This document shows positions 18,499 through 36,063 of a DNA stretch of 64,000 nt, piece after piece. Made by a program: the position numbers and the translations under genes. The stretch spans positions 186,001-250,000 of the forward strand of contig NZ_JAHNZT010000008.1 in assembly GCF_019039035.1 (NCBI RefSeq), read 5' to 3'. Below the pieces are notes generated by a model that saw only the letters and a program-made list of their open reading frames with translations, searched no databases and was not told the origin of the DNA. Positions within the stretch are counted from its first letter, which is position 1. Each line of letters opens with the position of its first letter. The stretch is from Citreicoccus inhibens (GTDB lineage Bacteria > Myxococcota > Myxococcia > Myxococcales > Myxococcaceae).

Positions 18499-20259
18499 CT
18501 AGCAGTCCACCGGCCCTTTCACGGCCGTGACCGTGGCTTCGATTTCCTCACAGCCACCCAACGTTTGCGCCCCGTTGTTGGCCAGTTTGATACCCAGCGT
18601 CTCCCCGACCTGCACGTCGGAGACGGAGCGCACCACCGCACCATCGCGCTGCCGGAAGGCCACCGCGTAGCCTCGAGACATCACCTTCAGCGGGCTCATC
18701 GCGTCCAGCCGCCCGCTCAGCGTCTCGAAGCGCCGCCGTGCCTCGGAGAGCGATTGACGCGGCAGAGCGACCAGGCGGGCATGCTGCGCCGCCAGCCGCA
18801 TCCGCTCGCGCGCCACCTGCGCGGTGGGGGACGCTCGCTCCAGCCCTAACCGAGCCTCCGCCAGGGCCCCGCGCCGCGAGGCCACTCCCGCGCGCGCCGC
18901 CTCCGCCAGCCGGCGAGACAGCTTGTGCAGATGGGCGCGCTGCTCGCTCAGGCGCGCCTGGGGTCGCGCCCGCTGGAGTCGCTCATGCAAGGCGCGCAAG
19001 CGCTCGCGGTGCTCGCGCACGGCGGGGCGCAGCACGCGCATCATCGCCTCCACCTGCTCGGACATGTGGAGGCGCTGCTGATTGATGGCGCGGCGGGGAT
19101 CCGCCAGCCGCGCCCCGAGCGCGCCCTGCCGCTCGCGAAGCTCCAGGACGCGGCGCTCCATGGCCCGACGCAGCCGGCCCGCCTGAGTGGCGAGGCTCAG
19201 CTCCAGGTCCGCGAGCACGGGGGACAGCCGCTCGGCCGCCGCGCTCGGCGTGGGCGCGCGCCAGTCCGCCACGAAGTCGGAGATGGTGAAGTCAATCTCG
19301 TGGCCAATGGCGGAAACCACCGGGACGGGCGAGGCGAAGATGGCCCGAGCCACCCGCTCCTCGTTGAACGTCCAGAGGTCCTCCACCGAGCCACCGCCGC
19401 GCGTCACCACGATGACGTCCACGTCGGCGCGGCCCAGGCGCTCGATGGCGCGAGCCACCTCCTCCGCCGAGCCCTCGCCCTGCACGCGCGCATCCGCGAG
19501 CAGCACGCCCATGCGCGGGTTGCGCGAGTGCAGCACGCGCAGGAAGTCTTGAAGCGCGGCGCCGGTGCGGCTCGTCACCACGCCGACGCGCCGGGGCAGG
19601 AACGGCAACGGACGCGGCAGCCGCACGCGTCGGTCGCCAATCAACCCCTCGGCGGCCAGGCGTGCCTTGAGCTGCTCGAAGGCCAGCGCCAGCGCGCCCT
19701 CGCCTACCGGCTCCAGCCGATGGACGATGAGGCTGTAGCGGCCCTGCGGCTCGTACAGGTCCACGCTGCCCTCGGCCAGCACTTCCATGCCGTCGCGCAG
19801 CGCGAAGCGCAGCCGGCCCGCCATCGACGCCCAGACCTTCGTGTCGATGGACGCATCGGCGTCCTTGAGCGTGAAGTACCAATGGCCCCGCGCGTTGGCG
19901 CCCCGGAAGCCGGACACCTCGCCGCGCACCACCACGCGCGGGAAGCGGGACTCCACCGTGTGCTTGAGCTGTCGCGTGAGCTCGCCCACCGACAGCACCA
20001 CCCGCTCCGCGCGAGGGGGCACCGCAACAGGCGCCGGCGTCACAACGGGCGCGGCCGCGACGGGCGCCGCCGCAGGAGCCGCGGGGGGGGCTGCATCCAC
20101 GGTCCCCACGGGAGCGGGCGTGGATGCCTTGGCGGCCTTCTTCGAGGCCGCGCGCGGCGCCGGGCGGAGCGGTGGCAGGAGCGACGTGCCGAAGAGGTCG
20201 CCCTGGTTCGGGTCGACCGGTGGGGGCGACTCGCCGCCCGCGCCCTTGCGCTTCTTCAT
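18499..20259 (-). CDS. xseA: Exodeoxyribonuclease VII large subunit with N-terminal extension
   Basis: 586 aa, over 100 longer than typical. Residues 1-85 are a Lys/Pro/Ala-rich unstructured extension; an OB-fold (~88-185) follows, then the exonuclease VII catalytic core with GVVTSRTGAALQDFL, VTRGGGSVEDLW and AIGHEIDFTISDFVADWRAPTPSAAAE, then a long coiled coil and the C-terminal MSRGYAVAF segment. It degrades single-stranded DNA bidirectionally to oligonucleotides. The extension is encoded with an 8-base C run (20083-20090, G on plus). ATG 20259 overlaps the FHA-TPR gene stop by four bases. Confidence 0.93.
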   Translation of the reverse strand: MKKRKGAGGESPPPVDPNQGDLFGTSLLPPLRPAPRAASKKAAKASTPAPVGTVDAAPPAAPAAAPVAAAPVVTPAPVAVPPRAERVVLSVGELTRQLKHTVESRFPRVVVRGEVSGFRGANARGHWYFTLKDADASIDTKVWASMAGRLRFALRDGMEVLAEGSVDLYEPQGRYSLIVHRLEPVGEGALALAFEQLKARLAAEGLIGDRRVRLPRPLPFLPRRVGVVTSRTGAALQDFLRVLHSRNPRMGVLLADARVQGEGSAEEVARAIERLGRADVDVIVVTRGGGSVEDLWTFNEERVARAIFASPVPVVSAIGHEIDFTISDFVADWRAPTPSAAAERLSPVLADLELSLATQAGRLRRAMERRVLELRERQGALGARLADPRRAINQQRLHMSEQVEAMMRVLRPAVREHRERLRALHERLQRARPQARLSEQRAHLHKLSRRLAEAARAGVASRRGALAEARLGLERASPTAQVARERMRLAAQHARLVALPRQSLSEARRRFETLSGRLDAMSPLKVMSRGYAVAFRQRDGAVVRSVSDVQVGETLGIKLANNGAQTLGGCEEIEATVTAVKGPVDC

Positions 20260-22016
20260 CGCGACAGCTTCTCGACCCAGGTCTGCGCCTTGGTGTGGAA
20301 CTCATCGTCCACGGGCGTCATCGAGACGACGTCCTTGAACTTGGGAAGCGCGTCCTCGGGGCTCGAGTCCTTGATGGAGTAGGCCTGTAGGTACAGGTCG
20401 CGGGCCTTCGTCTTCAGGTCGTTGACGATGTTGGACGCGCCCGCGTGTCCAGGGTCGGCCTGGAGCGCCTTGCGCGCGTACTCCATGGCCCGCGCCCACT
20501 GGCCGGAGGCCTTCGCCGCGCTGGCGCTCTTGTAGAAGATGGTGGCCGCGCGCGTGCCCGCGTTGCGCGCCATCTTGCTGCCCTTGCCATCGGTGATCTC
20601 CTTGTCGAGCGAGAGCAACCGCGACAGTCCCTTGGCGTCCAGGTCCTCCAGCTTCTTGTAGAGGCCACCGAACTCCGTCATCTGCCCCATCAGCGCCTTA
20701 CAGCGCGGCTGCCGAGCGGAGCAGGCGTTGAGGATGGCCACCGCGCCCGACAGGTCACCGTCGCGGAAGCGATCCACCGCGGGCTCCCAGGGCTTGGGCG
20801 TGACCACGGGCCCGGTGGGCTTGGGCTCCTTCGCGATGCGGATGGCCACCACGGCTTCATCGTTGATGAGCTTGGCGTCGCGGTGCTCCGGGAAGGCCGC
20901 CAGCACGTCGTCCGTGATGGCCTTCGCCTTCTCCATGTTCTCCAGCGTCTTCGAGTCCTGCAGCCCCCGCGCCTCTCGCGCGCGCTTGTCCGCGGCCTCG
21001 ACCAAGGACTTGCGCGCGATCTTCACCTGCTCGTAGAGCTGCGTGTCCGAGCTGACCTTCCCCAGTTCGGCGGTGGCCTTGGCCAGCTCCCCCTTCTTCA
21101 CCGCCTCGCTGACGGCCGTCAGGTGCGTCTGGTTGGGGATCTCCTTGTCCGCCGCCTTCAGGTAGTCCGCCACGCCCGGGTAATCCGGCGCCTGCGCCTG
21201 GAGTTCCTCCAGCTTCGTGCGGGCCTCCTGCCAGCGTCCCTCGCGGACCAGGTTCTTCGCGTCCTGGAAGAAGGCGCTGAGCTGCTCGCGGCGGCCCTTC
21301 TCCGCCATCGCGCGCTGCGCCTCCAATGACTCCTGCTGGCGCACGCGCATGCGCACCACGCCCAGGCCGGCGAAGAGCACCACCACCACGCCCGCGGCCA
21401 GCAGCTTCAGCCGCGTCCGCTTGCGAATCGCCTCGGGGCTGAGCTGCTCGACGTTGGTCCCCCGGCCCTGCGGACGCACCCGGCCCTCGGGCCGAGCCCC
21501 GGGCCGTGGCGGCACGCCCCCCGCGGCACGCCCACCCGCGGCGGGACGTGGCCGGGACGGCGCTGGAGGCGCCACCATCGCCGTGGAGTTCGCGGCGTCC
21601 TGGAAGGACAGCTCCGTGTCCCCCATGGTGATGGTGTCCCCGTTGGCCAGGAGGGTCTCCTCGGCGATGGGCTCACCATTGACCAGCGTGCCGTTGCCCG
21701 AGCCCAGGTCACTGACCATCCAGCCCGAGCCATCGTTGCGCACGGAGACGTGCCGGCGCGACACGGACGTATCGGGGATGCAGATGGGGTTATCCGTGGA
21801 GCGTCCGATGACGTACTCGGTGCCATCGAGGACGAACTCCTCGCCTTCCTTGGGCCCCGCGGTCACCACGAGGCGAGGAGACGAGCGAGGGGCCGCCGCG
21901 GGACGCGCACCCGACGCGCCGGGCGCCGGACGCCGGGCCGCGGGGCGCTGTCCGGTCCCGCCCGAGGGCGTCCCGGAGGTGGGCCTGCGGCGCGCAGGAG
22001 GGGAGCCGTTCGACAT
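20256..22016 (-). CDS. FHA-domain membrane protein with TPR-like C-terminal region
   Basis: 586 aa. Pro/Arg/Ala-rich N-terminus (1-45), FHA domain (~48-140) with GRSTDNPICI, SRRHVSV and GSGNGTLVNG motifs, linker, one transmembrane helix (about residue 205, LLAAGVVVVLFAGLGVV), and a large helical TPR-like region (~230-586). FHA domains bind phosphothreonine, so it may respond to Ser/Thr kinases, abundant in myxobacteria. It directly follows the second FHA gene of the Tad-like locus and precedes xseA; remembered M. xanthus gene order suggests it belongs to the Kil/Tad cluster. Confidence 0.83.
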   Translation of the reverse strand: MSNGSPPARRRPTSGTPSGGTGQRPAARRPAPGASGARPAAAPRSSPRLVVTAGPKEGEEFVLDGTEYVIGRSTDNPICIPDTSVSRRHVSVRNDGSGWMVSDLGSGNGTLVNGEPIAEETLLANGDTITMGDTELSFQDAANSTAMVAPPAPSRPRPAAGGRAAGGVPPRPGARPEGRVRPQGRGTNVEQLSPEAIRKRTRLKLLAAGVVVVLFAGLGVVRMRVRQQESLEAQRAMAEKGRREQLSAFFQDAKNLVREGRWQEARTKLEELQAQAPDYPGVADYLKAADKEIPNQTHLTAVSEAVKKGELAKATAELGKVSSDTQLYEQVKIARKSLVEAADKRAREARGLQDSKTLENMEKAKAITDDVLAAFPEHRDAKLINDEAVVAIRIAKEPKPTGPVVTPKPWEPAVDRFRDGDLSGAVAILNACSARQPRCKALMGQMTEFGGLYKKLEDLDAKGLSRLLSLDKEITDGKGSKMARNAGTRAATIFYKSASAAKASGQWARAMEYARKALQADPGHAGASNIVNDLKTKARDLYLQAYSIKDSSPEDALPKFKDVVSMTPVDDEFHTKAQTWVEKLSR

Positions 22017-22052: not shown

Positions 22053-23537
22053 TCACAGCTCGTGCTCGTATGCTTTTTCCAGGGCCAGATTGTGGCAGCG
22101 ATGGTCGGTGGTAGGGAAGCGCCGCCGCACGTCTTCCAGGGCCGCCTTGGCCTTCTTCCGGTTCCGGTACTGCACGTGGCGCTGGAACTCCAGCATCAGC
22201 TGGGCGCACTTCTGATCCAACTCCGACACGATGATGCCCAGCTGGTCGCGGACGTCCTCGTACAGGTCGGGCTTGGTCTCCAGCGCCTCCAACGTCACCC
22301 AGGCGAAGCGGTACTGCTGCCACGCCTTGAACAGGTTCTCCGCCCCCACGTCCCGCAGCTCGTAGAACTGCTTGCCCGCGGACGCGTACTGGCGCGCGCT
22401 CGCCAGGAGTTGATCCGGCGGCAGCTCGGGAACGGGGATGACCTCCAGCCGCAGGTTCCACACGCGCCACGTCTCGTGGCCCGGGGGATTGCGGACGTTG
22501 TCGAAGAGAATCTGGTTGTGCTGTCCCCGGCGCAGCACGTTCACCGGGAGGAGCTGCTCAATCTCCCGCTCCGCCGTGGCGTTCGTGTCCGCGGGCACCC
22601 AGCCCACCTCCACGCCGTTGAGCACCAGGTTCACTTCTTCCTTCGAGATGTCTCGCGCCTGGTAGTGGAGCACCGCCAACGCGCGCGTGGGCGACACGAA
22701 GGTGAAGTCGAACGCCTTCTGGTCCACCCGCTCCCACGTGACGTCCTTGCCCAGGCCGAAGGAGTCTGCCAGCGCCTCTGCCCCCACCAACGACGGCTCC
22801 GCCCCCCGGCCCAGTCCACCCTCCGAGCGGAACACCGCGGCCCAGAGCACCACGGCCACGAGCGACAGCAATCCCAAGCCGGCGACGCTCACGGCGCCCC
22901 AGCGGGCCACCCGGGGCATCCCTTCCCACCACAGGCGCACCTGTCCCCGCGCCGAGCCCTTCAACTCTCGGCGGTGGCGCGCGCGCTCCGCGGCGGACAG
23001 CGGCTCCTTCGCGCCCGCGGCCCGGACCGGCGCCGGGCCAGGCGCGACCTTGTCGAGCGCGCTCGGGCCCGCACTGGCGCCACCACTGGCCGCGGCGGGC
23101 TCGGGAATCACGAGCGCGGGCCGGAAGCCCGTGGGCGCGACTTCCAGCGCGGCCAGCTCCGCGGTCCCCTTCCCCGCGGGAGACACCTGGGCGCGGAGCA
23201 ACTCGCGCCGGATGGGGCGCGTGGCGTCCTCGTCGCCCTCGGGAGGAACCCAGACGAAGGTGAACGACACGGGCCCCACGGTGATGAGGTCGCCGTCGCG
23301 AAGCTGCTGCTCCGCGGTCAGCTTCTGGCCGTTGACCAGGGTGCCGTTGGAGCTCCCCATGTCGCTGGCGAAGTACTGACCGCCCCGCTCCACGAGGTTC
23401 GCATGTCGGCGAGACACCCCGTGGTCGTGCAGGACCAGGTCGTTCTCCGAGGTGCGACCGATCTTCACCTCGGCCGACTCGAAGACGAGCTCCCGCCCCT
23501 GCTGGAGCCCCTGGGTAATGGTGAGCCGGATAGGCAG
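22053..23537 (-). CDS. FHA-domain membrane protein of the Tad-like locus (CTG start)
   Basis: 494 aa if read from CTG 23537, four bases after the tadC stop. From there the product begins LPIRLTITQGLQQGRELVF, which is the normal first strand of an FHA domain; the first ordinary start (GTG 23468) would cut that strand off. Motifs: GRTSENDLVL, SRRHANL, GSSNGTLVNG. A GGGG stretch seven bases upstream of the CTG serves as ribosome site. A transmembrane helix lies near the middle (GLGLLSLVAVVLWAAVF), followed by a periplasmic beta-rich and helical region. Probably a phosphothreonine-binding regulator of the secretion apparatus. Confidence 0.8.
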   Translation of the reverse strand: MPIRLTITQGLQQGRELVFESAEVKIGRTSENDLVLHDHGVSRRHANLVERGGQYFASDMGSSNGTLVNGQKLTAEQQLRDGDLITVGPVSFTFVWVPPEGDEDATRPIRRELLRAQVSPAGKGTAELAALEVAPTGFRPALVIPEPAAASGGASAGPSALDKVAPGPAPVRAAGAKEPLSAAERARHRRELKGSARGQVRLWWEGMPRVARWGAVSVAGLGLLSLVAVVLWAAVFRSEGGLGRGAEPSLVGAEALADSFGLGKDVTWERVDQKAFDFTFVSPTRALAVLHYQARDISKEEVNLVLNGVEVGWVPADTNATAEREIEQLLPVNVLRRGQHNQILFDNVRNPPGHETWRVWNLRLEVIPVPELPPDQLLASARQYASAGKQFYELRDVGAENLFKAWQQYRFAWVTLEALETKPDLYEDVRDQLGIIVSELDQKCAQLMLEFQRHVQYRNRKKAKAALEDVRRRFPTTDHRCHNLALEKAYEHEL

Positions 23538-23541
23538 AGGA

Positions 23542-24432
23542 CTACCCCGCGAGCTCGCCGAAGAAGAACTGGAAGACGATGGGGCCGAACAGCACCATGA
23601 AGACCGTAGGGAAGATGCACGCGATGAGCGGGAACAGCATCTTCACCGGGGCCTCGCCGGCCAGCTTCTCCGCGCGCTGGGTGCGGTCGATGCGCATCTG
23701 GGTCGACTGGATGCGCAGCACCTTGCCCAAGCTGGTGCCCATCTTGTCCGCCTGGATGAGCGCCGTGACGAACGTGGTGAGCGGCGGCAGGTCCACGCGG
23801 ACGATCATGCTCTTGAGCGCCTCTTCACGCGTCTTGCCCATCTTGAGCTGCTTGAGCACCAGCTGCAGCTCCTCGCGCAGCGCGCCCGCCTTGCCCTTCT
23901 CCACCACCTTCGCGAGCGCGCCCGTGAAGTCCAGACCGGCTTCCACCGACAGGGTCAGCAGGTCCAGGCTGTACGGCAGCGCGCGGCTGATGGCCAGGTG
24001 GCGCTTCTTCACCTGATCGTTCAGCCACAAGAGCGGGTAGTACAGGCCGATCAACATCACCAGCAGCGCCCACGCGAACGTCGCGTTGAACGCATTGCAG
24101 GCGAACAGGCCGAAGATGAGCGCCAGCACGGCGCTGACCTCCTGCATGGCCATGATGTCCTCGGGCTTGTAGCCCTGGGGCTCACCCGCCTTGATGAGCT
24201 TGCGCCGCGCCTTGGCCTCGTACGACGGCCACATGAAGCGCCGGTTGATGACGCCCAGCTTGCGGATGGCCACCGAGCCGGCGCCCTTCATGCCGCCGCC
24301 CGACTCGTCGCGGACCTCCGACAGGAAGCGCTCGAAGACGTTCTGGTACAGACCGATTCCCAGGAACGCCACCGCCGCAGCGGTGAGAAGCGCCGAGCCG
24401 ACAATCAGGATGACTGTGAGGATGTCCTGCAC
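23542..24432 (-). CDS. tadC: TadC-type inner-membrane platform protein (T2SS F family)
   Basis: 296 aa. N-terminal transmembrane helix, cytoplasmic loop with VINRRFMWPSYEAKARRKL, two central helices, then a T2SSF domain (DLLTLSVEAGLDFTGALAKV, TREEALKSM) and C-terminal helices. Together with TadB it forms the platform on which the pilus ATPase acts. Ten bases after the tadB stop. The motor ATPase gene normally next to tadB/tadC is absent from this window. Confidence 0.9.
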   Translation of the reverse strand: MQDILTVILIVGSALLTAAAVAFLGIGLYQNVFERFLSEVRDESGGGMKGAGSVAIRKLGVINRRFMWPSYEAKARRKLIKAGEPQGYKPEDIMAMQEVSAVLALIFGLFACNAFNATFAWALLVMLIGLYYPLLWLNDQVKKRHLAISRALPYSLDLLTLSVEAGLDFTGALAKVVEKGKAGALREELQLVLKQLKMGKTREEALKSMIVRVDLPPLTTFVTALIQADKMGTSLGKVLRIQSTQMRIDRTQRAEKLAGEAPVKMLFPLIACIFPTVFMVLFGPIVFQFFFGELAG

Positions 24433-24442
24433 GGTACGCCTC

Positions 24443-25288
24443 TCAGATGTCGATGTTGACGATGCGGCGGATGATCAAGATCCCGAGGATCTCCATGATG
24501 GCGATGATGGTCACCAACACGTAGCCGAAGATGTGGTTCATCATCGGCTCCATCAGGTCCGGACGCATGTAGTTGAGCACCATGCCCAGCACGCCCGGCA
24601 TGGCCGCCACAATCCACCCCTGCAACTTGCCCTGGGACGTGAGCGCGTCGATCTTGCCTTCCAGACGGAAGCGCTCGCGAATCACCGCGGAGATGGTCTC
24701 GAACATCTCCGCCATGTTGCCGCCCAGCTGGCGCGCGATGTTCGTGGAGACGACCACCAGCTCCAGGTCGTCACTGCCCACGCGGCGCCCCATGTTGATG
24801 AGCGACTCCTCCAGCGGCACGCCCAGCTTCACCTCTTTGACGAAGAGGCCGAACTCCTGGGACAGCGGCGGCTGCGCCTCGCGGGCCACGTGCTCGATGG
24901 CCTGCGGGAACGTGAGACCCGCCTTGAACGCGTTGGCCATGGCCTGCAGCGCGTCCACCAACTGGACGTTGAACTTCTTGATGCGGCGCTTGCGGTAGTA
25001 CTTCACCAGGATCATCGGCAGGAAGAAGCCGAACACCGTCGACGCCACCGCGAGCACGGGGTTGAAGACGATGTAGCTCAGGATGCCGAGCAAGCACATG
25101 CACGCGATGTTGAGGACCAACATCTGCCGTGCGTCGATGAAGAGGAACATGTCGCTCAAGTCGTTCATCGACTTGGCGACGTACCGCTCCTGGTATTGCT
25201 CATACGCCTTCGACAGGACGCTGAAGATCACCAGGCTGAAGAAGAAGACCGAGCCGGTGACGAGGAGGAGGACGATTCCTGCAAGCAT
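24443..25288 (-). CDS. tadB: TadB-type inner-membrane platform protein (T2SS F family)
   Basis: 281 aa. N-terminal helix (~3-25), paired helices (~58-95), T2SSF domain with LVDALQAMANAFKAGLTFPQ and VKLGVPLEESLINMG, and two C-terminal helices ending in NIDI. Partner of TadC in Tad/Flp pili and in the Kil apparatus. It lies 53 bases after cpaB on the same strand, consistent with a cpaB-tadB-tadC operon from the promoter upstream of cpaB. Confidence 0.9.
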   Translation of the reverse strand: MLAGIVLLLVTGSVFFFSLVIFSVLSKAYEQYQERYVAKSMNDLSDMFLFIDARQMLVLNIACMCLLGILSYIVFNPVLAVASTVFGFFLPMILVKYYRKRRIKKFNVQLVDALQAMANAFKAGLTFPQAIEHVAREAQPPLSQEFGLFVKEVKLGVPLEESLINMGRRVGSDDLELVVVSTNIARQLGGNMAEMFETISAVIRERFRLEGKIDALTSQGKLQGWIVAAMPGVLGMVLNYMRPDLMEPMMNHIFGYVLVTIIAIMEILGILIIRRIVNIDI

Positions 25289-25341: not shown

Positions 25342-26160
25342 TTACGGCGAACCGGCGGCGGCGGCCTTCTCGGAGGTGCCGCCCTTGATGATCTGGATGA
25401 TCTCCCGGCGCTTCTGCTCCAGGACGCGGGTGCGCTCGCCAGACAACAGCGTGCTGATGGTGGCGCGGCCACGCTCCTCGATCATGTCCACGTCGTCCTC
25501 GTTGCGCAGCGACAGGGTGAGCTGCCCCAGCTCCGTCGCGAGCACCAGGATCTCCGCCTCCTCCGGCAGCACCATCAGCGACACGTTCGCGTAGTCGCGC
25601 TGGTTCTCCGGGATGAGGTTCACGTTGGTGGTACCGGTGATCTTTCCGGTCGCCACCACGATGATGTTCTGCAGCAGCGTCACGGCCACGTTCTCCTGGG
25701 ACTGCGGATCCAGGAACGTCCCGATGATGTCCACGTGGTCGTTCGGACGAATCCAGCCACCCACGGCCGTGGTCGGCTTGGCCTCGATGGTGATGGCGCG
25801 GGCCTTCTTCTGCACCTTGGTGGAGAGGCGCTCCGCCGCCTTCGTCGTCTCGAACTGGCTCCAGAGGATGGGGTCGCCGGCCTGCAGCGCCACCAGCACC
25901 TTCTGGTTCACGATGTAGCCCGCGGAGTCCGGCTTCACCACGGACGACGTGACGAACTGCTCGGGCACCGAGCGCTGGGAGATCATCTCGTAGTTGATGA
26001 CCGTCCCCTCGGGCATGTCCTGGGCCGCCACGACCACCGGCACGAGGTTCCAGCCACGACGAACGTCGGCTTCCTTCTTCTTGATGGCCGAATAGGCCAC
26101 GACGCCCGCGAGCAGTCCAAGCACGAGCGCGACGATGAGGGGAGTCTTACCCTTCAGCAT
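25342..26160 (-). CDS. cpaB: Flp pilus assembly protein CpaB/RcpC
   Basis: 272 aa. N-terminal membrane anchor (LIVALVLGLLAGVVAYSAI), then an SAF domain (VVVAAQDMPEGTVINYEMI) and an RcpC/CpaB domain (KARAITIEAKPTTAVGGWI through GQLTLSLRNEDD). CpaB proteins stabilise the outer-membrane secretin of Tad systems from the periplasm. ATG 26160 follows a GGAGG site ten bases upstream. No secretin gene is nearby, so the partner must be unlinked. Confidence 0.92.
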   Translation of the reverse strand: MLKGKTPLIVALVLGLLAGVVAYSAIKKKEADVRRGWNLVPVVVAAQDMPEGTVINYEMISQRSVPEQFVTSSVVKPDSAGYIVNQKVLVALQAGDPILWSQFETTKAAERLSTKVQKKARAITIEAKPTTAVGGWIRPNDHVDIIGTFLDPQSQENVAVTLLQNIIVVATGKITGTTNVNLIPENQRDYANVSLMVLPEEAEILVLATELGQLTLSLRNEDDVDMIEERGRATISTLLSGERTRVLEQKRREIIQIIKGGTSEKAAAAGSP

Positions 26161-26334: not shown

Positions 26335-27009
26335 TCACAGTTCGGCGAGCGCCGCGCGATCATCCGCGGTCAGGCCGCTGCCGTCGGTGATGTGCCAGAG
26401 GGCCTCCTGGACCACCTCTACCTTGGAGCCATCCTCCGCGATGTGCTTGCCCTTGATGAGCGAGATGAGCTCCTTGACCTGCGCGTTCTGGGTGACGGGG
26501 CCCAGCGTGTAGCGCGCCTTCGGCTCAGAGGCGGAGCGGTTGTGGTTGAGGCAGAAGGCGTAGAGGGGCAACGGCCCGCTCTTCACCTGAGGGCCCGCGT
26601 CCGCGCCGCCGGGGTAGATGACCACGTGGACATCCTCCAACAGGATTCCGTGCTGGAAGTCGGGAGACGACGCCACGAGCACGAGCCCCGCCGGCAGGTC
26701 GAGCGGAACCCCCACGACGCCATCATTGCGAACCGGCACGCACGCGCGAACCATGAACCCCGAGCCCAACGGATCCAACTGCACCGGGGCGCAGTAGCCG
26801 TCGTCATCCGTGCCCGTCAGCTCCCCCTCGAGACGCAGCCCCGTCGGCAGCGACCACGCCGTCCCCACCGGGCGGCCTCGGTCATCCCCGAACCCGGCCT
26901 TGTCACCGGCGCCTCCACCGCCCCCTCCCCCGCCGTCCTTGTCTTCGCTGCACCCCGACAGCACCAGCAGGCCCACCGCCGCCATCCGCAGCCACGTCAT
27001 CGACTTCAT
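26335..27009 (-). CDS. Predicted lipoprotein of the Tad-like locus
   Basis: 224 aa. Lipoprotein signal MKSMTWLRMAAVGLLVLSGC with lipidation at C20, followed by an acidic and poly-glycine tether. The mature domain has two well separated cysteines and a PxxVQLDPLGSGFM-like beta segment; no known family. A strong ribosome site (GGAGG, eight bases) supports ATG 27009. Position between the pseudopilin genes and cpaB suggests an accessory, possibly outer-membrane, component; some Tad systems carry a pilotin-like lipoprotein, but similarity cannot be judged here. Confidence 0.72.
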   Translation of the reverse strand: MKSMTWLRMAAVGLLVLSGCSEDKDGGGGGGGGAGDKAGFGDDRGRPVGTAWSLPTGLRLEGELTGTDDDGYCAPVQLDPLGSGFMVRACVPVRNDGVVGVPLDLPAGLVLVASSPDFQHGILLEDVHVVIYPGGADAGPQVKSGPLPLYAFCLNHNRSASEPKARYTLGPVTQNAQVKELISLIKGKHIAEDGSKVEVVQEALWHITDGSGLTADDRAALAEL

Positions 27010-27122: not shown

Positions 27123-27860
27123 TCAGGGCTCGCGAGGCTGGGTGGGAGGCAAGTCCGGATTGAACAGGCCGCGCAGGACGACGGGGGCGCCCGTCTCGTC
27201 GTGGAGGAACACGGGCTGCCCCGCCTCCACCCCCACCGCGCGGACCTCGAACGAGATGCCGTCCGGTGACACGAAGACCCAGACGTCCCCCGGCACGAGC
27301 GGCGTGGGCCGGGCATCCGGCGCGGTCAGCCACACCAGTCGCGGCGACACCGGCCGGAAGAAGCGATTGCTGACGCGCGAGCCGGACTGAGTCACCGCCC
27401 CGAGCGACTCCACCCACGGCTCGGGGCGCGCCGGCACCTCGCCCTCCTCTTGCAGCACGCCCACCCAGCGCAGGTGGACGCGACGCGCGGAGGACAGGAT
27501 GGACAGGTTCGCGGCGCGCTCGGAGCGCTCCAGGGGCGGCCCCCAAGAGCCCGTGAGCATCGTGGCCAGCACGCCCAGGAGGATGCAGACCGAGGCCCAC
27601 AGCGGCGCGGAGACGGAGCGCACCAACGCCACGCCCAACCTCAGGACGCCCACCGCCGCGAGCACCGAGCCCACCAGCAGCACGCCGCGCGGCGGCTCTC
27701 CCGTGTGATAGGGCCAGCCCACGACTTCGCCCAGGTACTGCCACTCGGGAATGGCGGCGCCGAAGACGAGGGCCGCCAACCCCAGGAAGATGATGGCGTG
27801 CACCCAGCGCAGACCCGCGGAAGAGGAGGTCGCGCGCGCGTCCTTCGAAGACGACTTCAC
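27123..27860 (-). CDS. Membrane protein of unknown function in the Tad-like locus
   Basis: 245 aa from GTG 27860, overlapping the previous gene stop by four bases. Three or four hydrophobic helices occupy residues ~18-100 (WVHAIIFLGLAALVFGA and following); the C-terminal ~140 residues look like a soluble beta-rich domain. No family recognised. Translational coupling to the small pilin-like gene indicates that it belongs to the same machine. Confidence 0.72.
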   Translation of the reverse strand: MKSSSKDARATSSSAGLRWVHAIIFLGLAALVFGAAIPEWQYLGEVVGWPYHTGEPPRGVLLVGSVLAAVGVLRLGVALVRSVSAPLWASVCILLGVLATMLTGSWGPPLERSERAANLSILSSARRVHLRWVGVLQEEGEVPARPEPWVESLGAVTQSGSRVSNRFFRPVSPRLVWLTAPDARPTPLVPGDVWVFVSPDGISFEVRAVGVEAGQPVFLHDETGAPVVLRGLFNPDLPPTQPREP

Positions 27861-28087
27861 GGGAACGGCAGGTTCAGCACGAAGTAATACGAGTCGTAAT
27901 AAACTTGGTACGCCTCCATGAAGAGGTCGATGACGTTGGCTTGCTTGTCCGCGCTCCAGCGAACCTTCACCGAGGCGCCCACCACGAGCGCCACGACGAG
28001 GACCCAGTTGAGCATGGAGTACTCAACCATCGCCTGACCGCGACGGGCGCGGCGAGCAGCGCGCTGCGACGACTTCGCGGGCTTCAT
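27857..28087 (-). CDS. Small Flp/TadE-like pilin
   Basis: 76 aa. Basic leader RAARRARRG is followed by QAMVEYSMLNWVLVVALVVGA: a glycine at the cleavage point, glutamate at +5 and tyrosine at +6, then a hydrophobic helix, the signature of type IVb (Flp) prepilins. After the helix only ~35 residues remain, rich in Tyr and Phe. ATG 28087 overlaps the upstream stop (ATGA) and its own stop overlaps the next start (GTGA). It is the best candidate in this window for a major filament-forming subunit. Confidence 0.75.
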   Translation of the reverse strand: MKPAKSSQRAARRARRGQAMVEYSMLNWVLVVALVVGASVKVRWSADKQANVIDLFMEAYQVYYDSYYFVLNLPFP

Positions 28088-28878: not shown

Positions 28879-29657
28879 GGCGCCGCCTCCTTCTGAGCCT
28901 TCTGCGCGCGCTCGTACGCGGCCTTGCTCTCACGCACGGCCGCGTCATTGGGGACCGCGTCCGGGCGATCCGAGCCGACCCACATCTGCAACATCGCGGT
29001 GACGCCCTCGTCCACGGGGCTGAGGTTGGTGACCACCTGCTCGCCCTTGCGCGCGTGCTCCAGCGTGACGCGCGTCTGTCCGCCGACCTTGACCGCGGAC
29101 TCGCGCACGGGCGCATAGCCTTGCTTGCTCATCTCCTGCACGACGCGCTGGCGCACCGTGGCCATGTCGCCCTCGACGAGCGCCGAGCGATGCTGAGACC
29201 CTCCAGCCGCGTCGCGCGACGCGAGGTCCTCGCTGAACAAGGTGCCCTCCAACTTCACCAGCCCCGACGCGGGACTCTTGGGCGCGCTCATCCACAGGTC
29301 GCGCAGCACCGTGAAGCCCAGCGTCTTCCCCAGGTGCCGCCGCAGCACCACGCCGCGCTGGAGCCCCTCGCGCGTGTAGAGCGCCGACACGACCGCCTCT
29401 TCCTTCAGGTCCCCATCCACCGCGGTGGGGTAGCCCTGGGAGCGCCACTGCTTGACGAAGTAGTCCACGACCTTGTCCATCGGGTCGTCGGTGAGGAAGT
29501 AGGCCATGCGGTAGTACTCCCCCGCGATGACCAGATCGTTCCCGATGCGCGTGTGCACGGTGCCCGGATACACGGGCAGCTCCTGCTGAGCGCTCGCGCT
29601 GAGCGCACCCAGCAGCAACATGAGGACGAGGCCGCGCCGCGCCGCCGCGCTACTCAC
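28875..29657 (-). CDS. Exported protein of unknown function in the Tad-like locus
   Basis: 260 aa from GTG 29657, which overlaps the upstream tadE-like stop; from there the product starts with a regular signal peptide (SSAAARRGLVLMLLLGALSASAQ). An in-frame start 24 bases earlier would add MRTRTSEI. The mature domain contains repeated alpha-beta blocks (VVDYFVKQWRSQGYPT and VVQEMSKQGYAPV), suggesting an internal duplication. No family recognised; probably periplasmic. Confidence 0.75.
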   Translation of the reverse strand: MSSAAARRGLVLMLLLGALSASAQQELPVYPGTVHTRIGNDLVIAGEYYRMAYFLTDDPMDKVVDYFVKQWRSQGYPTAVDGDLKEEAVVSALYTREGLQRGVVLRRHLGKTLGFTVLRDLWMSAPKSPASGLVKLEGTLFSEDLASRDAAGGSQHRSALVEGDMATVRQRVVQEMSKQGYAPVRESAVKVGGQTRVTLEHARKGEQVVTNLSPVDEGVTAMLQMWVGSDRPDAVPNDAAVRESKAAYERAQKAQKEAAP

Positions 29658-30825
29658 AATTTCGGATGTCCTGGTTCTCATCGCCCTTGGTGGCGGCCAC
29701 GCTGTTGGCGGCGGAGGGGTCCTCGGCCTGCGCGTTCTTGCAGCCCATGAAGTTCTCGCCGCGCGCCTCGAAGATCTTGATGTACTGCGACTTCTCCAGC
29801 TCCCGGTCGCGGAACGGCGCGGTGTCGAAGCACTGGGGCCGCTCGTAGTCCAGCAGGGACTTGGACTTGGTCATCTGGTCCTGGAGACCGTGGACGCCAT
29901 TGGCGGGGAACGTGTTGATGCCCGTGCACTCCAGCGTGCCTGGCAGGCCGTAGTTCTTGGAGATGACGAACGTGCCCAGGAACGCGGGCGAGAACTTCTT
30001 GAAGAAGTCCAAGACGCTTCCCAGCGGCGAGCTTTCAATCTTCGCCTTCACGCCCAGGAAGGTCATGCGATTGACCTGCTGGTAGAGGCCGTGCGGATCT
30101 CCGCCCGCCGTGTGCCCACCCGCGCGCCGCCCATTGATGACCGCGTCGCCGCCGTCCGGCAGATTCCAACCCGTGGCGTACATGGAGAAGTGAGACTTCA
30201 ACTCCAGGTTCGCCAGGTTGCGATTTCCGAACGTGTTCACCTTGAAGAAGCCCCCCGACCCGGACTCCTCCAGGTACCGCTTGGGCAGGATGGAGTTGGC
30301 GAACTTCATGCTCACGCTCGTGTCCACCCACCCCTTGGTGTTGAGCTTCCAGAAGTTGAGCAGGCCCTTGGCGCCACCATTCACCGCGCCCAGCACGTCC
30401 GAAGCCCAGCCCTCCCCTGAGTTGCCCAACACCAGGCCGCCCTCGATGAACGGCACCTCGCGGTTGGTGACCTCGGCCTTCACGTTCGTGTAGTTCGCGA
30501 TGAAGTTGCCCGCGCGGGCATTGGGCTCCACCGAGTCCATGTCCTTGTAGCGCTCGAGGGCCTCCTCCAGCGCCTCCTTCTTCGCGTCATCGAAGGCGGC
30601 GTCATGCTCCGCCTTGGCGATGTCCGTCAGCGTGTAGCTGGTCATCTCGAAGGTGGTGTACCGCGCCATCTCCAAGAGCTTCAGCTTCGCCCGCACCAAC
30701 TCGGTGAGGTACATGCTGAACATCAGGATCATCACCAGCACGGGGACGATGACCGCGAACTCGACGGTGGCGGCGCCCCGTCGCGTCAACTTCCGTGTGC
30801 GCGCGTGGAACATGGCGGGGCTCAA
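29650..30825 (-). CDS. TadE-like pseudopilin with large C-terminal domain
   Basis: 391 aa, against ~150-200 for ordinary TadE proteins. Basic leader then RRGAATVEFAVIVPVLVMI: glycine cleavage point, glutamate at +5 and phenylalanine at +6, and a hydrophobic helix. The remaining ~340 residues form a large exported domain with three cysteines toward the C-terminus. Similar oversized pseudopilins occur in the M. xanthus Kil system and were proposed to act at the prey contact tip (recalled, not checked). ATG 30825 overlaps the tadG-like stop. Confidence 0.83.
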   Translation of the reverse strand: MSPAMFHARTRKLTRRGAATVEFAVIVPVLVMILMFSMYLTELVRAKLKLLEMARYTTFEMTSYTLTDIAKAEHDAAFDDAKKEALEEALERYKDMDSVEPNARAGNFIANYTNVKAEVTNREVPFIEGGLVLGNSGEGWASDVLGAVNGGAKGLLNFWKLNTKGWVDTSVSMKFANSILPKRYLEESGSGGFFKVNTFGNRNLANLELKSHFSMYATGWNLPDGGDAVINGRRAGGHTAGGDPHGLYQQVNRMTFLGVKAKIESSPLGSVLDFFKKFSPAFLGTFVISKNYGLPGTLECTGINTFPANGVHGLQDQMTKSKSLLDYERPQCFDTAPFRDRELEKSQYIKIFEARGENFMGCKNAQAEDPSAANSVAATKGDENQDIRNCE

Positions 30826-32912
30826 TGGGTGATGACCTTGGCCGCGATGCCGCGCACCTGGGTGGGGAGCTGTGACTCCAGCGTCGTGATGAGCGGGAGC
30901 GTCCCTCGCCCCTGGTACACGGACGCCAGTCGCGGGCGCCAGTAGGGGTTGAAGAAGTTCGGATGCTCCGTCCAGTTGCCCGGCCGGTGGTAGTACGTCT
31001 GGCCGCGGGTGATGACGTTGAGCCCCTCGACGAAGCCGGCGAACTTCTTCCGGTCGTTCTTCATCTCCAGGCCGTGCGTGTCGCTCGTGAAGGAGAACTT
31101 CACCTTGCCCTGGTCGTTGAGCTGCGCGGGCGCGTTCGTGCCAGCGTCCTTGTCCTTGAGGTCCTTGTTCATGACCTCGTCCGGGGACTTGTTCAGCGCC
31201 ACCCAGGTGGACGGCTGGTTGAAGTCGAACCGGTCGCGCTTCGCGGCGGTCTCGGTGCTCGCCTTGCGATCACAGACACCGTCGAACTGACCGGGCTCGA
31301 AGTGCATGAACGGGACGACGCCGCCCCACGGATGGTTGGTGTCCTCCGCCGGGTGCACGTTCGCCGTGTACACGCTGATCTTCCCTGCCCCCAGGAAGCA
31401 CACGGGCAAGGTGCAGATCTTGTGCTCCGTGACGCCCACCTCGCCCTCGGGCCCGCTGGGGCGCGTGTAGCCGCGCCACGTCGTGTCGCCCGTGGGCATG
31501 CGCTGCGGATGCACGCGCCAGTGCACGCCGCCGTTCTGGAATGAGCCTTCCGTGGCGTTCATGGCCCAGATGCTCGTCTTGGCCATGTACTGGTACGGCA
31601 TGTACTTGCCGCCGGTGTCCTTGAGGCCCTTGCGCGGATCGCCCCAGCACTCGCTGGGGTCCTTCACGTCGGTCTTGCAAGACAGCGGGTTGCGGAAGCC
31701 CGGGATGTTGGCCGGCCCGAACTTCAGCCAGTACAGGTCATCCGAGCCCATGTTGTCTCCCTGGGCCATGCTGCCGAGCGACGGAGCGATGCCCTCGCGC
31801 CAATCCCGGATGTAATTGCGCGCGGTGTTCGTCTTCACGATCTTCGCGCGGTCCGGGTTGTTGACCGTGAGCAGACGCGTCTGGCCCAGCTTGCCGAAGC
31901 TGAACACGCCCGGGATGTCGATCTCGTTGTTGAGCCAGTCGCGGAGGATGCCCAGCCAGTCCGGCAACGGGATGAGATCCCCCAGGCGCCGGGACGTGAT
32001 GAAGCGCTCCTGGCAGGAGATGAGGTCCACGCTGCCCACGCCCAGACTCCCCTTCGAGTCGCAGGCATAGCGGGTGGCGTTGGCCACCGCGCCCATGGCG
32101 CGCTTGGCGCGGGCCTCCTTCTCATCGTGGCGCCACGCCTCGGGTTTGATGGGCTTGAAGGGATTGACGGGCATGCCCAGCGGGCGCCCACCTGCCTCTG
32201 GGAAGTGCGACTGATCGAAGAGGCATTGGCTGATGACGCCCGTGACCCCCTGGCTGACCAGCGAGTTGATGTTCTTGTCGTTATCCGCGATGACCGTGTC
32301 GGTGGTCTGCAAGACGTGCGTGGACGCCGACATCATCACCGCTTGTGAGGCGAAGAACAGGACGCTGTTGAGTATCCGGTGGGTCGGGATGATGAATTTG
32401 CCAATGAGCTTGTCTGGGTTGGTCGTCCGGATGAGCGTATGGAAAGCCTTGACGATCATCCGCCAGGCATCCATCGCCTTGTCTATGATCTTCAAAACCT
32501 GCCCGATGTAAGGCAAGGCTTCGAGAATGGGACAGGCCACCTTCCAGAAGATATTCTTGGATTTACCCGCGCATGGGTTCAGCGTCTTCATGAACCCATA
32601 CGTGTCCGCGAGGAAGGCCTCCGCGAAGTAGATGAGCGACAGCAGCGACTGCCACATCATCGCGGAGACGTAGTGTGATGCCTGGGTGCGGTTGGCGTAG
32701 GCGTAGAAGTTGAACGCCCGCGCCTCCATGGCGGACATGGAGTAGGCGGCCGCGTCCGCGGTGTTCTGCAGGCGAATGCGCTCGTGGACGGTATGGCCGA
32801 TGTTGACGGTCGTGACGACCGCGATGGACATCACCAGGACCAGCAGCGCGGCAAGCACCAGCGCCTGGCCTTCCTGGCGACGAAAACTCTGTCGGAGGAT
32901 CCGGGTGAACAT
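30822..32912 (-). CDS. TadG-like pseudopilin/Flp-assembly protein with very large C-terminal domain
   Basis: 696 aa. The N-terminus RRQEGQALVLAALLVLVMSI matches the TadE/G-like leader and helix, followed by the conserved QNTADAAAYSMSAMEARAFN segment common to TadG proteins. The rest (~600 residues) is unique, with at least eight cysteines that may form disulphides. No von Willebrand motif was seen, unlike many TadG proteins. Flanked by two TadE-like genes in the same operon. It may be a tip or anchoring component. Confidence 0.82.
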   Translation of the reverse strand: MFTRILRQSFRRQEGQALVLAALLVLVMSIAVVTTVNIGHTVHERIRLQNTADAAAYSMSAMEARAFNFYAYANRTQASHYVSAMMWQSLLSLIYFAEAFLADTYGFMKTLNPCAGKSKNIFWKVACPILEALPYIGQVLKIIDKAMDAWRMIVKAFHTLIRTTNPDKLIGKFIIPTHRILNSVLFFASQAVMMSASTHVLQTTDTVIADNDKNINSLVSQGVTGVISQCLFDQSHFPEAGGRPLGMPVNPFKPIKPEAWRHDEKEARAKRAMGAVANATRYACDSKGSLGVGSVDLISCQERFITSRRLGDLIPLPDWLGILRDWLNNEIDIPGVFSFGKLGQTRLLTVNNPDRAKIVKTNTARNYIRDWREGIAPSLGSMAQGDNMGSDDLYWLKFGPANIPGFRNPLSCKTDVKDPSECWGDPRKGLKDTGGKYMPYQYMAKTSIWAMNATEGSFQNGGVHWRVHPQRMPTGDTTWRGYTRPSGPEGEVGVTEHKICTLPVCFLGAGKISVYTANVHPAEDTNHPWGGVVPFMHFEPGQFDGVCDRKASTETAAKRDRFDFNQPSTWVALNKSPDEVMNKDLKDKDAGTNAPAQLNDQGKVKFSFTSDTHGLEMKNDRKKFAGFVEGLNVITRGQTYYHRPGNWTEHPNFFNPYWRPRLASVYQGRGTLPLITTLESQLPTQVRGIAAKVITH

Positions 32913-32925
32913 GGGGCAATTCCTC

Positions 32926-33936
32926 TTACAGGCCCCAGTCGGGCTTGAGGTGCATGATCCACTTGCGGTGGAAGTTGGACTGCATCCGCATGGTGTATGT
33001 GGCCGTCAAGGGCAGGAAGTAGCGCTTGCCGACCAGCTTCGAGACGAGGGGGATGCTGCCATCCGCCAGCCCCCAGAGGACCCACATCTCCGGGGCGTAG
33101 ACCGTGTTGTAGCCCTCTTCGTGGTCCATTCCGCGAGCCTTGCCACGCAGGGCGCTGATGTCCTTCGTGCGGTTCGTCATGTTCGCCTTCTGCTCCAGCG
33201 TCGGGCGATCAATGGCGCCACGCAGCGCGACCTGCGCGTTGGAGGCGTACCACGCGTAGAAGATGACCCAGTTGGCGAATGGCACGCGCATCTCGTACCA
33301 GTAGCGCAGGCGAATGGTGAGACGCGTGGCCTTGCGGTAGACGGTCTCGGACTCATCCGGCTGGGGCAGGTTGAAGAACTTGATGATCTTCGACTCGAGG
33401 CCGGGCACTTCCGGGAAGCTGTCCGCGCCGTCGAAGTCCAACTCCTGCCAGTTGTAGCCCGCGCGCAGCTTCCAAATCGTGTCGATGGGCGTGAAGTAGG
33501 CCGGGTTGACGGTATCCACCCGGATGATGCCGAAGAGGTTGGAGCCGTTCAGCGACTCCGGCACGACGCCGCCGCCCCACGCCAACGCGCGCATCGCCTT
33601 GTCATAGAGCTGGTGCTTTCCCCACGTCTTTCCCAGCTCGACGATGTCGTCGGTCCGCCCCATGGTGGGCAGCAACGCGACGATGGCCGCGTCGTGCATG
33701 CGCTCGTTGTTGCCGTTCCAGACGATGCCTGCGCGCGCGGCTTGATACGCCGCGTACTCCGTCATCAGTTTCGCGTGCTGGATCATCGTGAGCTGGATGA
33801 TTCCCAGCGCCAGGAAGACCATGAGCGGCATCACGAGTGCCGACTCGACGGCCACCTGGCCAGACTCCCGCCCCGCCCCAACCTTCTCAGACCGCCTCAT
33901 GTCGTCATTATCGAGAACAGCGCCCACATGACGCAT
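32926..33936 (-). CDS. TadE-like pseudopilin with large C-terminal domain
   Basis: 336 aa. After a charged N-terminus the helix begins ESGQVAVESALVMPLMVFLA: glycine, then glutamate at +5, the TadE pattern. About 270 residues of extra domain follow, rich in Trp and Tyr and free of cysteines in its middle part. ATG 33900 (MRRSEKVG) is an alternative start giving a more usual short leader; neither has a clear ribosome site. First gene of the pseudopilin operon, directly downstream of the anti-sigma gene. Confidence 0.82.
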   Translation of the reverse strand: MRHVGAVLDNDDMRRSEKVGAGRESGQVAVESALVMPLMVFLALGIIQLTMIQHAKLMTEYAAYQAARAGIVWNGNNERMHDAAIVALLPTMGRTDDIVELGKTWGKHQLYDKAMRALAWGGGVVPESLNGSNLFGIIRVDTVNPAYFTPIDTIWKLRAGYNWQELDFDGADSFPEVPGLESKIIKFFNLPQPDESETVYRKATRLTIRLRYWYEMRVPFANWVIFYAWYASNAQVALRGAIDRPTLEQKANMTNRTKDISALRGKARGMDHEEGYNTVYAPEMWVLWGLADGSIPLVSKLVGKRYFLPLTATYTMRMQSNFHRKWIMHLKPDWGL

Positions 33937-34009: not shown

Positions 34010-35392
34010 TCAGCGGGCTCCACCGTTGGGCGGCTCGGTTCGAGGAAGCGCGGGCGCGGCAGAAGCAGGAGCTGGCTGCGACACGGACCGCTTCTTCATC
34101 TTCCGCAGCGCAACCTCGGCCGCTCGTGAGTTGGGGGACTCGGCCAGGGCGCGATTGCAGGACTCGTCCGCCGCGGAGTCCTGCCCCAGGGCGGATTCCA
34201 GCTCACACAATCGGTTGAGAATCCTCACGCGCTCCGTCCTGGGAGCCCCCGCGCTCAAGGCCTCCCGCAAGAACCGCAGCTCGCGGAGATCATCGCCTTG
34301 GCTCGCCGCCGCTTGCGCCTGCCGGGACAGGTCCTGCCAGGACAGCGCCGGAGGCGACGCTGGGGTCGGGCTGGGGGCCTGATCCGCCTTGCCCGCCAGG
34401 GCGCCCCCCACAGCCGAGCGCGGGGCGTCTTCCTCCACGGCGGCCCGCGACGCAGCGGGCGCGGCCTTGCTCACGGACTTGGATGCGGCGACGGGCTTCG
34501 GAGCCTCGGCCGGGGCTCGGCCCGCTGGCGCGGCCGCACTGGGGGCATTCGCCATGAGCCCATCGGGCGCTTCCGCTTCATCCGCCACTTCCCGCGCGAG
34601 AGAAGCACCACCGAGGCGCAAGGACGAGCGCTCCTCCTTGGCGAGGTCGTCATAGCGCGGTCCGGCGACAGCCTGGGCCACGGGCTGGGGCTCGGCGGCG
34701 ACAGCCACCGTCTGCGCGGGCGGAGGCGGCGGCGGCGGCCGCTCCTTCTGGCCGAAGTCCGCCAGCTGCTTCTTCGCGGGCGCCAGCTTCGAGGCGCGCG
34801 TGTCCAGACCGCCCCCGCTGCCGGCGTTCATCCACTCCACCGAGCGCTCCGGGTAGGCCCCTCGGTCCCTGCGCTTGGGAGCCTTGTCCAGTGGGAGGTC
34901 ATCCGCGAGCGGCGCCGCGGCCGGAGCCGGGGCGGCCTCGGCCTTGGCCTCGAGCGCGGACGGCGCACTCACCTCGGGAGCCGCGCCGGGCGACTTGGCG
35001 CCCACGACGTCCGCCGCCTTCATCGCGGGGGCCAGGTTCAGGTTCTCGTTCACCGTGATGGACAGGATGCCCAGGGTGCCCACCGCGGCCAGTCCCGCCA
35101 CGGGCAGCAGCCAGCGGCGCCACCGCGAGGGCTTGGGCTCGGGGCCCGCCGCCGCGCGACGGGCGGCCTGGTTCGCGTAGGCGAGCAAGGACTCCAGCCC
35201 CGCGTCGGGCGCGGGCTCGTCGGAGAGCTGGGCCATGGTGACGCGGACGCCCCGGATGTCCTCCAGGGCCCGAGCGCACCGGACACACCCTTGCAGGTGC
35301 GCCTCCAAGGCCTGAGCCTCGGTGCTGGGCAGTTCGCCATAGGCGAAGTCGAGGAGCCGGTCCTCGTGCGCGTGTGGATTCTGCGCTTTCAT
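34010..35392 (-). CDS. Zinc-finger anti-sigma factor with long periplasmic region
   Basis: 460 aa. N-terminal zinc-binding anti-sigma domain with HLQGCVRC (H-x3-C-x2-C pattern, residues ~32-39), one transmembrane helix (~95-117, LLPVAGLAAVGTLGILSI), then ~230 residues of Pro/Ala/Lys-rich linker and a C-terminal helical TPR-like block (WQDLSRQAQAAASQGDD onwards). It should hold the co-encoded ECF sigma at the membrane until a signal reaches the periplasm. ATG 35392 overlaps the sigma stop. The location next to the Tad-like operon makes that operon a likely target. Confidence 0.87.
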   Translation of the reverse strand: MKAQNPHAHEDRLLDFAYGELPSTEAQALEAHLQGCVRCARALEDIRGVRVTMAQLSDEPAPDAGLESLLAYANQAARRAAAGPEPKPSRWRRWLLPVAGLAAVGTLGILSITVNENLNLAPAMKAADVVGAKSPGAAPEVSAPSALEAKAEAAPAPAAAPLADDLPLDKAPKRRDRGAYPERSVEWMNAGSGGGLDTRASKLAPAKKQLADFGQKERPPPPPPPAQTVAVAAEPQPVAQAVAGPRYDDLAKEERSSLRLGGASLAREVADEAEAPDGLMANAPSAAAPAGRAPAEAPKPVAASKSVSKAAPAASRAAVEEDAPRSAVGGALAGKADQAPSPTPASPPALSWQDLSRQAQAAASQGDDLRELRFLREALSAGAPRTERVRILNRLCELESALGQDSAADESCNRALAESPNSRAAEVALRKMKKRSVSQPAPASAAPALPRTEPPNGGAR

Positions 35393-36063
35393 CCCGCCAC
35401 CGTCCTTCCATCCTCCGCCAGATCGCCGTCCACGCCCAGTTCGCCCAGGCGTCGGCGCAGCGCTTCCAGCGCGTAGCGCATCCGACTCTTCACTGTGTTC
35501 TCGGACACGCCTGTCACCTCGGCGATCTCCTTGAACGGGATGCCGCTGTACTCACGAAGGATGAAGACCTCGCGTTGCTCTTCCGGAAGGCTGGCGAGCG
35601 CGCGCTCCAACAAGGGACGCAGCCGCGCATTGTGAGCGCCCCGCTCCGGGCTGGCGCCTTCATCGGGAAGGCTCTCCCCGAGCGCACGCCCCTCGTCGCC
35701 GTCCGTGCCGGCGGCGGGCGCCTCCAAGGAGGAGGCCTGGCGGTAGCTCTCTTTGCGCGTGCTGTCCACGCAGAGGTTCCTCGCAATGGTGTAGAGCCAC
35801 GTCGTCAGCTTGGCCTTGGGCTCGTACTCCCGGGCGCTGCGCACGACCTTGAGCCACGTCTCCTGCAGCACGTCCTCCGCCCGCGACCGGTGACCGACGA
35901 AACGCAGGATGAAGTTGAAGACCGGCGCTCGGTGCCTGCGCACCAGGGCCTCGAATGCACGAGCGTCTCCCGCCTGGAAGGCGAGCATCAGCCGCTCGTC
36001 TGAGATCTCCGGTCCCAACACTCCCCCATTGCTCATGGAGCCACGGGTGCTTCCCTTTCCCAC
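35389..36063 (-). CDS. ECF-family RNA polymerase sigma factor
   Basis: 224 aa. Region 2 (FEALVRRHRAPVFNFILRFV, then EDVLQETWLKVV and TWLYTIARNL) and region 4 (LPEEQREVFILREYSGIPFK, then VSENTVKSRMRYALEALRR) are complete; no region 3, as in ECF factors. GTG 36063 has a GAGGG ribosome site eight bases away and is chosen; ATG 36036 (MSNGGVL) is an alternative. Co-encoded with its anti-sigma, and upstream of the pseudopilin genes on the same strand. Confidence 0.9.
   Translation of the reverse strand: MGKGSTRGSMSNGGVLGPEISDERLMLAFQAGDARAFEALVRRHRAPVFNFILRFVGHRSRAEDVLQETWLKVVRSAREYEPKAKLTTWLYTIARNLCVDSTRKESYRQASSLEAPAAGTDGDEGRALGESLPDEGASPERGAHNARLRPLLERALASLPEEQREVFILREYSGIPFKEIAEVTGVSENTVKSRMRYALEALRRRLGELGVDGDLAEDGRTVAG

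Follow-up and report, generated by a model that had tools for sequence, protein, structure and literature searches.

The locus analysed here raises the question of what is formed by three oversized pilin-like proteins encoded side by side in a 64,000-nucleotide stretch of DNA (the window), for which a first-pass annotation had suggested either a contact tip or a pore on the prey cell. Predatory myxobacteria recognise and kill prey on contact with the tip of the Kil pilus, a pilus of the Tad type (PMC12075869). The available text of that paper describes the products of mxan_4660, mxan_4659 and mxan_4658, named KilM4, KilN4 and KilL4 respectively, as modelled in the form of a heterotrimeric spearhead with a helix bundle at the pilus tip, reports genetic studies in Myxococcus xanthus in which four such tips act with partly redundant roles in both pilus formation and prey killing, and identifies KilK as the adapter for Tip1, Tip2 and Tip4.

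The three pilin-like proteins

The open reading frames of three oversized pseudopilins in tandem (Table 1) were confirmed, and are designated KilM (336 aa), KilN (696 aa) and KilL (391 aa), or M, N and L when gene order is described. Their leaders matched TadE, Tad and TadE respectively, in each case above the curated Pfam cut-off, with the Tad domain of KilN being TadE/G-like and an additional TadF match in KilL falling under the cut-off. A single hydrophobic segment lies close to the N-terminus of each protein, beyond which there extend, by simple arithmetic, about 280, 650 and 345 residues in KilM, KilN and KilL respectively, as against the ~270, ~600 and ~340 residues given initially. The kilN and kilL genes share a four-base overlap.

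Leader and hydrophobic helix are those of the TadE and Tad families, as in the canonical TadE, TadF and TadG minor pilins; ordinary TadE, TadF and TadG proteins, however, are usually far smaller, with shorter exported parts, and a VWA domain is found in many members of the TadG family; no match to such a domain was obtained with the exported part of any of the three proteins (Pfam, E<=0.1). The MIDAS-like pattern DxSxS was absent from KilM and KilN, and occurred once in KilL outside any Pfam VWA match. KilM contains no cysteine, KilL four and KilN ten, and KilN is accordingly the cysteine-rich protein devoid of a VWA motif that had been singled out at the outset. No adhesin, pore, toxin or enzyme family was detected in the three proteins by Pfam at E<=0.1.

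The prepilin cleavage motif G/XXXXE is present in both KilM and KilL, whereas the corresponding segment of KilN (G15-QALVL) lacks the Glu at +5, as do all 18 aligned KilN sequences. The same residue is likewise missing from GspK, the tip pseudopilin of type II secretion, and its absence from KilN would fit a terminal position on the pilus.

Together with their surroundings the three genes make up a Tad pilus cluster; the ECF sigma factor and zf-HC2 genes, which lie upstream beside it, could possibly serve to regulate the tip genes.

Table 1. Genes of the tip cluster in window coordinates, with strand and supporting matches (values after Pfam names are E-values; L-numbers are loci in related genomes, L016 being that of M. 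xanthus AM003)
Feature	Coordinates	Strand	Evidence
FHA + TPR protein adjoining platform genes	20256..22016	(-)	FHA 7.2e-19, TPR; also adjoins cluster in L020
FHA-domain protein adjoining platform genes	22053..23468	(-)	FHA 2.7e-19; also adjoins cluster in L020
Tad inner-membrane platform protein (KilG/KilH pair)	23542..24432	(-)	T2SSF 1.6e-18; 84% to M. xanthus AM003
Tad inner-membrane platform protein (KilG/KilH pair)	24443..25288	(-)	T2SSF 3.1e-17; 93% to M. xanthus AM003
KilB orthologue (CpaB/RcpC)	25342..26160	(-)	RcpC 9.1e-22, SAF 1e-8; 91.5% to M. xanthus AM003
Conserved cluster gene, 224 aa, start resembling that of a lipoprotein (by eye)	26335..27009	(-)	Homologue in 10/17 loci; no Pfam match
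Conserved cluster gene, 245 aa	27123..27860	(-)	Homologue in 14/17 loci; no Pfam match
Probable adapter of the tip: KilK-like Flp pilin (76 aa)	27857..28087	(-)	G/QAMVE motif; 77% to 75-aa copy of M. xanthus AM003; Flp label from motif, size and synteny, no Pfam match
Conserved cluster gene, 264 aa	28084..28878	(-)	Homologue in 15/17 loci, one truncated by contig end; no Pfam match
Conserved cluster gene, 268 aa	28875..29681	(-)	Homologue in 15/17 loci; nothing above Pfam cut-off
KilL4 orthologue, TadE-type minor pilin, extended C-terminal part	29650..30825	(-)	391 aa, TTG start; TadE 1.2e-5; G/XXXXE at G17
KilN4 orthologue, TadG-type large minor pilin, variable head	30822..32912	(-)	696 aa, ATG start; Tad 9.6e-8; 10 Cys; no VWA
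KilM4 orthologue, TadE-type minor pilin	32926..33936	(-)	336 aa, ATG start; TadE 2.5e-12; G/XXXXE at G26
zf-HC2 zinc-finger protein, probable anti-sigma factor	34010..35392	(-)	zf-HC2 6e-6; adjoins cluster in L010, L011, L016 (cut), L020, L021
ECF sigma factor	35389..36063	(-)	Sigma70_r2 1.6e-18, r4_2 6.2e-18; 86-88% identity in L010, L011, L020, L021

Orthology and synteny with Myxococcus xanthus

The reference deployed for M. xanthus was strain AM003, which carries no locus tags, and the correspondence of its relevant locus (L016) to mxan_4658-4660 was consequently set by cluster content. Relative to that locus, sequence orthology extended to all three proteins, with identities of 76% for KilM (residues 23-336), 59% for KilN (1-696) and 52% for KilL (6-391), divergence being greater in KilN and KilL than in KilM. 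Protein lengths are alike, and the order of genes is the same in both: after M-N-L come counterparts of the adjoining genes, the gene for the KilK-like Flp, the CpaB gene and the genes for two T2SSF proteins. The region mxan_4648-4661 has been described as kil cluster II of M. xanthus, comprising KilG, KilH, KilB and KilK together with pseudopilins (PMC8460266, available text), and the cluster in the window is assigned to the kil cluster II type because its gene content matches KilG, KilH, KilB, KilK and KilL4/N4/M4.

With M-N-L thus situated inside a Tad cluster alongside KilK, KilB, KilG and KilH, the three genes very probably encode the Tip4 complex (KilM4, KilN4 and KilL4) belonging to a predation pilus of the Kil type, in a myxobacterium related closely to Myxococcus and Pyxidicoccus. 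A tip of this type was described in a relative in 2025 (PMC12075869), and the feature in the window is accordingly real but known.

The ECF sigma factor and zf-HC2 genes (34010-36063) were found to keep their place beside the kil cluster even in Archangium lansinium (L020), in which the cluster is rearranged.

Distribution among relatives

A contig scan conducted with the 696-aa protein yielded 17 loci. Two of them lie in Comamonas sp. KCTC 72670, and the records of the other 15 bear the names Myxococcus, Pyxidicoccus, Hyalangium, Archangium or Myxococcaceae. Homologues of the 336- and 391-aa proteins flanked that of the 696-aa protein in 15 of these loci, a frequency which argues that the arrangement is not due to chance. 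The proposal that the exported sequences are unique did not survive: as judged from match coordinates, 15 of the 17 KilN homologues span 685-699 aa and both Archangium examples 656 aa, so that the size is normal for the family. Homologues in other genomes of the family likewise ruled out proteins confined to this genome.

When 58 genomes of the family were scanned with a further KilN4-like protein of M. xanthus AM003 (L019, described below) at E<=1e-60, 29, including that of the window, gave a match and 29 did not. From at least 31 matches, 30 loci were given, the 31st match, in genome G029, being without a locus; in 27 of the 30 (the window's included, and with L100 cut at both ends) M and L lay beside N. 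Of the remaining three, L101 lacks M and is cut by a contig end, while L074 and L075 lack both M and L.

The same cluster is present in the record bearing the name Comamonas sp. KCTC 72670 (L010, L018), whose KilN4 shares 93% identity with the M. xanthus AM003 protein; this record is probably a mislabelled Myxococcus.

Conservation of KilN and KilL

The KilN alignment comprised 18 rows, among them the solo copies L018 and L019 described below, and counts derived from it therefore mix solo and Tip4 genes. Ten cysteines proved invariant in all 18 rows. The mean majority fraction, computed over segments of 30 residues, was 0.89-0.98 over residues 1-90 and 0.95 over 631-660, as against 0.54-0.80 over the intervening residues 91-630; invariant positions in this more variable head nevertheless include D386, D391, D392, H464, H527, H537 and E539. 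Conserved ends, a more variable middle and ten invariant cysteines together fit a base that is conserved and a head that can be exchanged, an arrangement proposed from models in PMC12075869.

The KilL and KilM alignments each combined the window sequence with those of 13 of 15 loci, L013 and L017 being omitted from the former and L006 and L009 from the latter, in which the mechanically assigned start of the reading frame lay far upstream. L022 contributes a divergent, gapped row to the KilM alignment. Three of the four cysteines of KilL were present in all 14 rows and the fourth in ten; predicted intramolecular disulfides are among the traits by which a Kil Tip4 complex is characterised, as is an additional distal domain of KilN dissimilar to known structures.

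AlphaFold predictions returned mean pLDDT values of 37.1 for KilN (18 sequences) and 45.6 for KilL (14 sequences), and the resultant models were unusable. Searches of PDB sequences with the KilN alignment gave nine matches with E-values of 0.2-0.29 to one 18-residue stretch, and with the KilM alignment two matches (0.75-0.77), both sets being taken as chance; the KilL alignment gave nothing at E<=1.

Other Kil components in the genome

The genome from which the window is drawn amounts to 9.05 Mb in 123 contigs. A gene pair resembling the secretin KilC and the ATPase KilF of the separate kil cluster I was located on contig C48, where a secretin gene (2.2e-43) adjoins genes for an FHA+T2SSE ATPase (3.7e-66) and an FHA protein. 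Contig C52 contains a 115-aa reading frame for a putative KilP-like Flp pilin, with a G/QGMTE motif and a hydrophobic helix, for which the Flp_Fap match (E=4.4e-5) fell below the curated cut-off.

Solo kilN4-like genes

Three full-length kilN4-like genes were found to stand alone, at L019:2959-5034 in M. xanthus AM003, L018:7501-9588 in KCTC 72670 and L074:1501-3594 in G029, with no kilM or kilL homologue in the available flanks in these three genomes. L075 represents the same place as L018, and G029 belongs to the genus group of KCTC 72670; among the 58 genomes of the family a solo gene occurred in two, both from that genus group, of which five members were searched. Comparison of the three copies gave dN values of 0.09-0.13 against dS values of 0.43-0.60, indicating that solo kilN4 is subject to purifying selection. 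The product may possibly be an alternative head for the Tip4 base; the word 'orphan' is absent from the main text of PMC12075869.

The genes on either side of the solo gene in L019 encode a DUF6585 protein and a glyoxalase. Nearby (L019:6655-11795) there lie two genes for type-2 encapsulin shell proteins with cyclic-nucleotide-binding domains, and a terpene synthase gene.

Proposed mode of action and alternative explanations

By analogy with M. xanthus, we infer that tip position, a role in pilus formation and killing, the adapter function of KilK and killing independent of the T3SS* hold in this organism too. The prepilin leaders of KilM, KilN and KilL would be cleaved, the three N-terminal helices would form a base, docked to the terminus of a KilP pilus by way of the KilK-like Flp adapter, and the central part of KilN would constitute the outermost head, meeting the prey and contributing to its killing. 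Of the strands on which this scheme draws, the orthology, gene order, conserved ends and other Kil components were computed here, while tip position (from models), the requirement in pilus formation and killing (from genetics), the role of KilK and the T3SS*-independent killing by Tip4 are taken from the M. xanthus work.

Between the two functions initially proposed, the contact tip is favoured by orthology to the M. xanthus KilM4/N4/L4 proteins, for which models and genetics are reported in the available text of PMC12075869, and the pore finds no support here, no pore-forming family having been detected by Pfam at E<=0.1 and the structure models being unusable. The guess that the oversized pilins most likely form a contact tip was accordingly sound. 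The counter-description offered with it, of minor-pilin folds with ordinary roles, applies in its first half, these being minor pilins; it fails in its second, the role being predatory in the characterised relative.

How Tip4 kills prey independently of T3SS* is a question on which the present data touch. In the available text of PMC12075869, where that independence is reported, it is considered that a toxin may be borne by Tip4 or be associated with it, and a toxicity of its own is also left possible by the authors. The KilN4 head might thus itself be the killing agent, as a pore or an enzyme, rather than a mere recognition head or toxin carrier, a reading compatible with the Tip4 assignment and one with which the ten invariant cysteines and the invariant Asp, His and Glu residues of the head would agree. 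Such residues can, however, be structural, the PDB sequence matches are at chance level, no toxin or enzyme family emerged from Pfam at E<=0.1, and the same authors place prey recognition probably in the distal head domain of KilN; on balance, this reading is regarded as unlikely. Still less probable is its conjunction with the solo genes, whereby the KilN4 head would be a killing domain in its own right, with a new toxin or membrane-puncturing fold, and some Myxococcus would in addition keep a solo kilN4 with which to mount an alternative head on the KilM4/KilL4 base. That the three proteins are merely the TadE/F/G minor pilins of an ordinary Tad adhesion pilus, with large heads devoted to surface attachment and no part in predation, is very improbable, for although their leaders are generic TadE and Tad domains and TadEFG tips are present in Tad loci of other bacteria (PMC12075869, available text), the VWA match is lacking and the cluster is syntenic with kil cluster II of M. 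xanthus, the tips of which act in prey killing.

For the Tip4 assignment, the window contributes one further genome with the M-N-L order, together with an independent view of conserved ends and a more variable head.

Further tip loci

Two further M-N-L loci were located in the genome of the window, on contigs C43 and C47 (L041 and L042 respectively); their identification came from BLAST matches, the order of the genes and visual inspection of the leaders. Only their M proteins, both with TadE, passed a Pfam cut-off; the N protein of C43 gave no Pfam match and that of C47 one below the cut-off, while neither L protein gave any. A simple motif scan, by which variants may be missed, found no KilO-like Flp beside either locus. 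The genome thus contains three KilN-type genes as against five, one of them solo, in M. xanthus AM003; in the strain of PMC12075869, 14 minor pilins are counted in the available text.

Both KilN paralogues match the window KilN near its ends alone (residues about 6-92 and 633-670), and their heads gave no BLAST match to the Tip4 head. The M-N-L order and conserved KilN ends are common to the window's tip, to Tip1-Tip3 of M. xanthus and to the fifth tip type (PMC12075869). In other genomes some paralogue matches extend further inward (5-191 and 524-687), and the middle of KilN is therefore not wholly unrelated between paralogues.

Among AM003 loci, the closest partners of the two further tips are L063 and L060, with N identities of 50% and 68% respectively, whereas for the third AM003 tip, L069, the best N match among them was only 31%, from which it would seem that tip repertoires differ between species. 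That of Hyalangium versicolor is possibly large, nine KilN-type N-terminal matches being recorded in its genome (G005, the source of L009), a number above that of the tips (four) described in M. xanthus.
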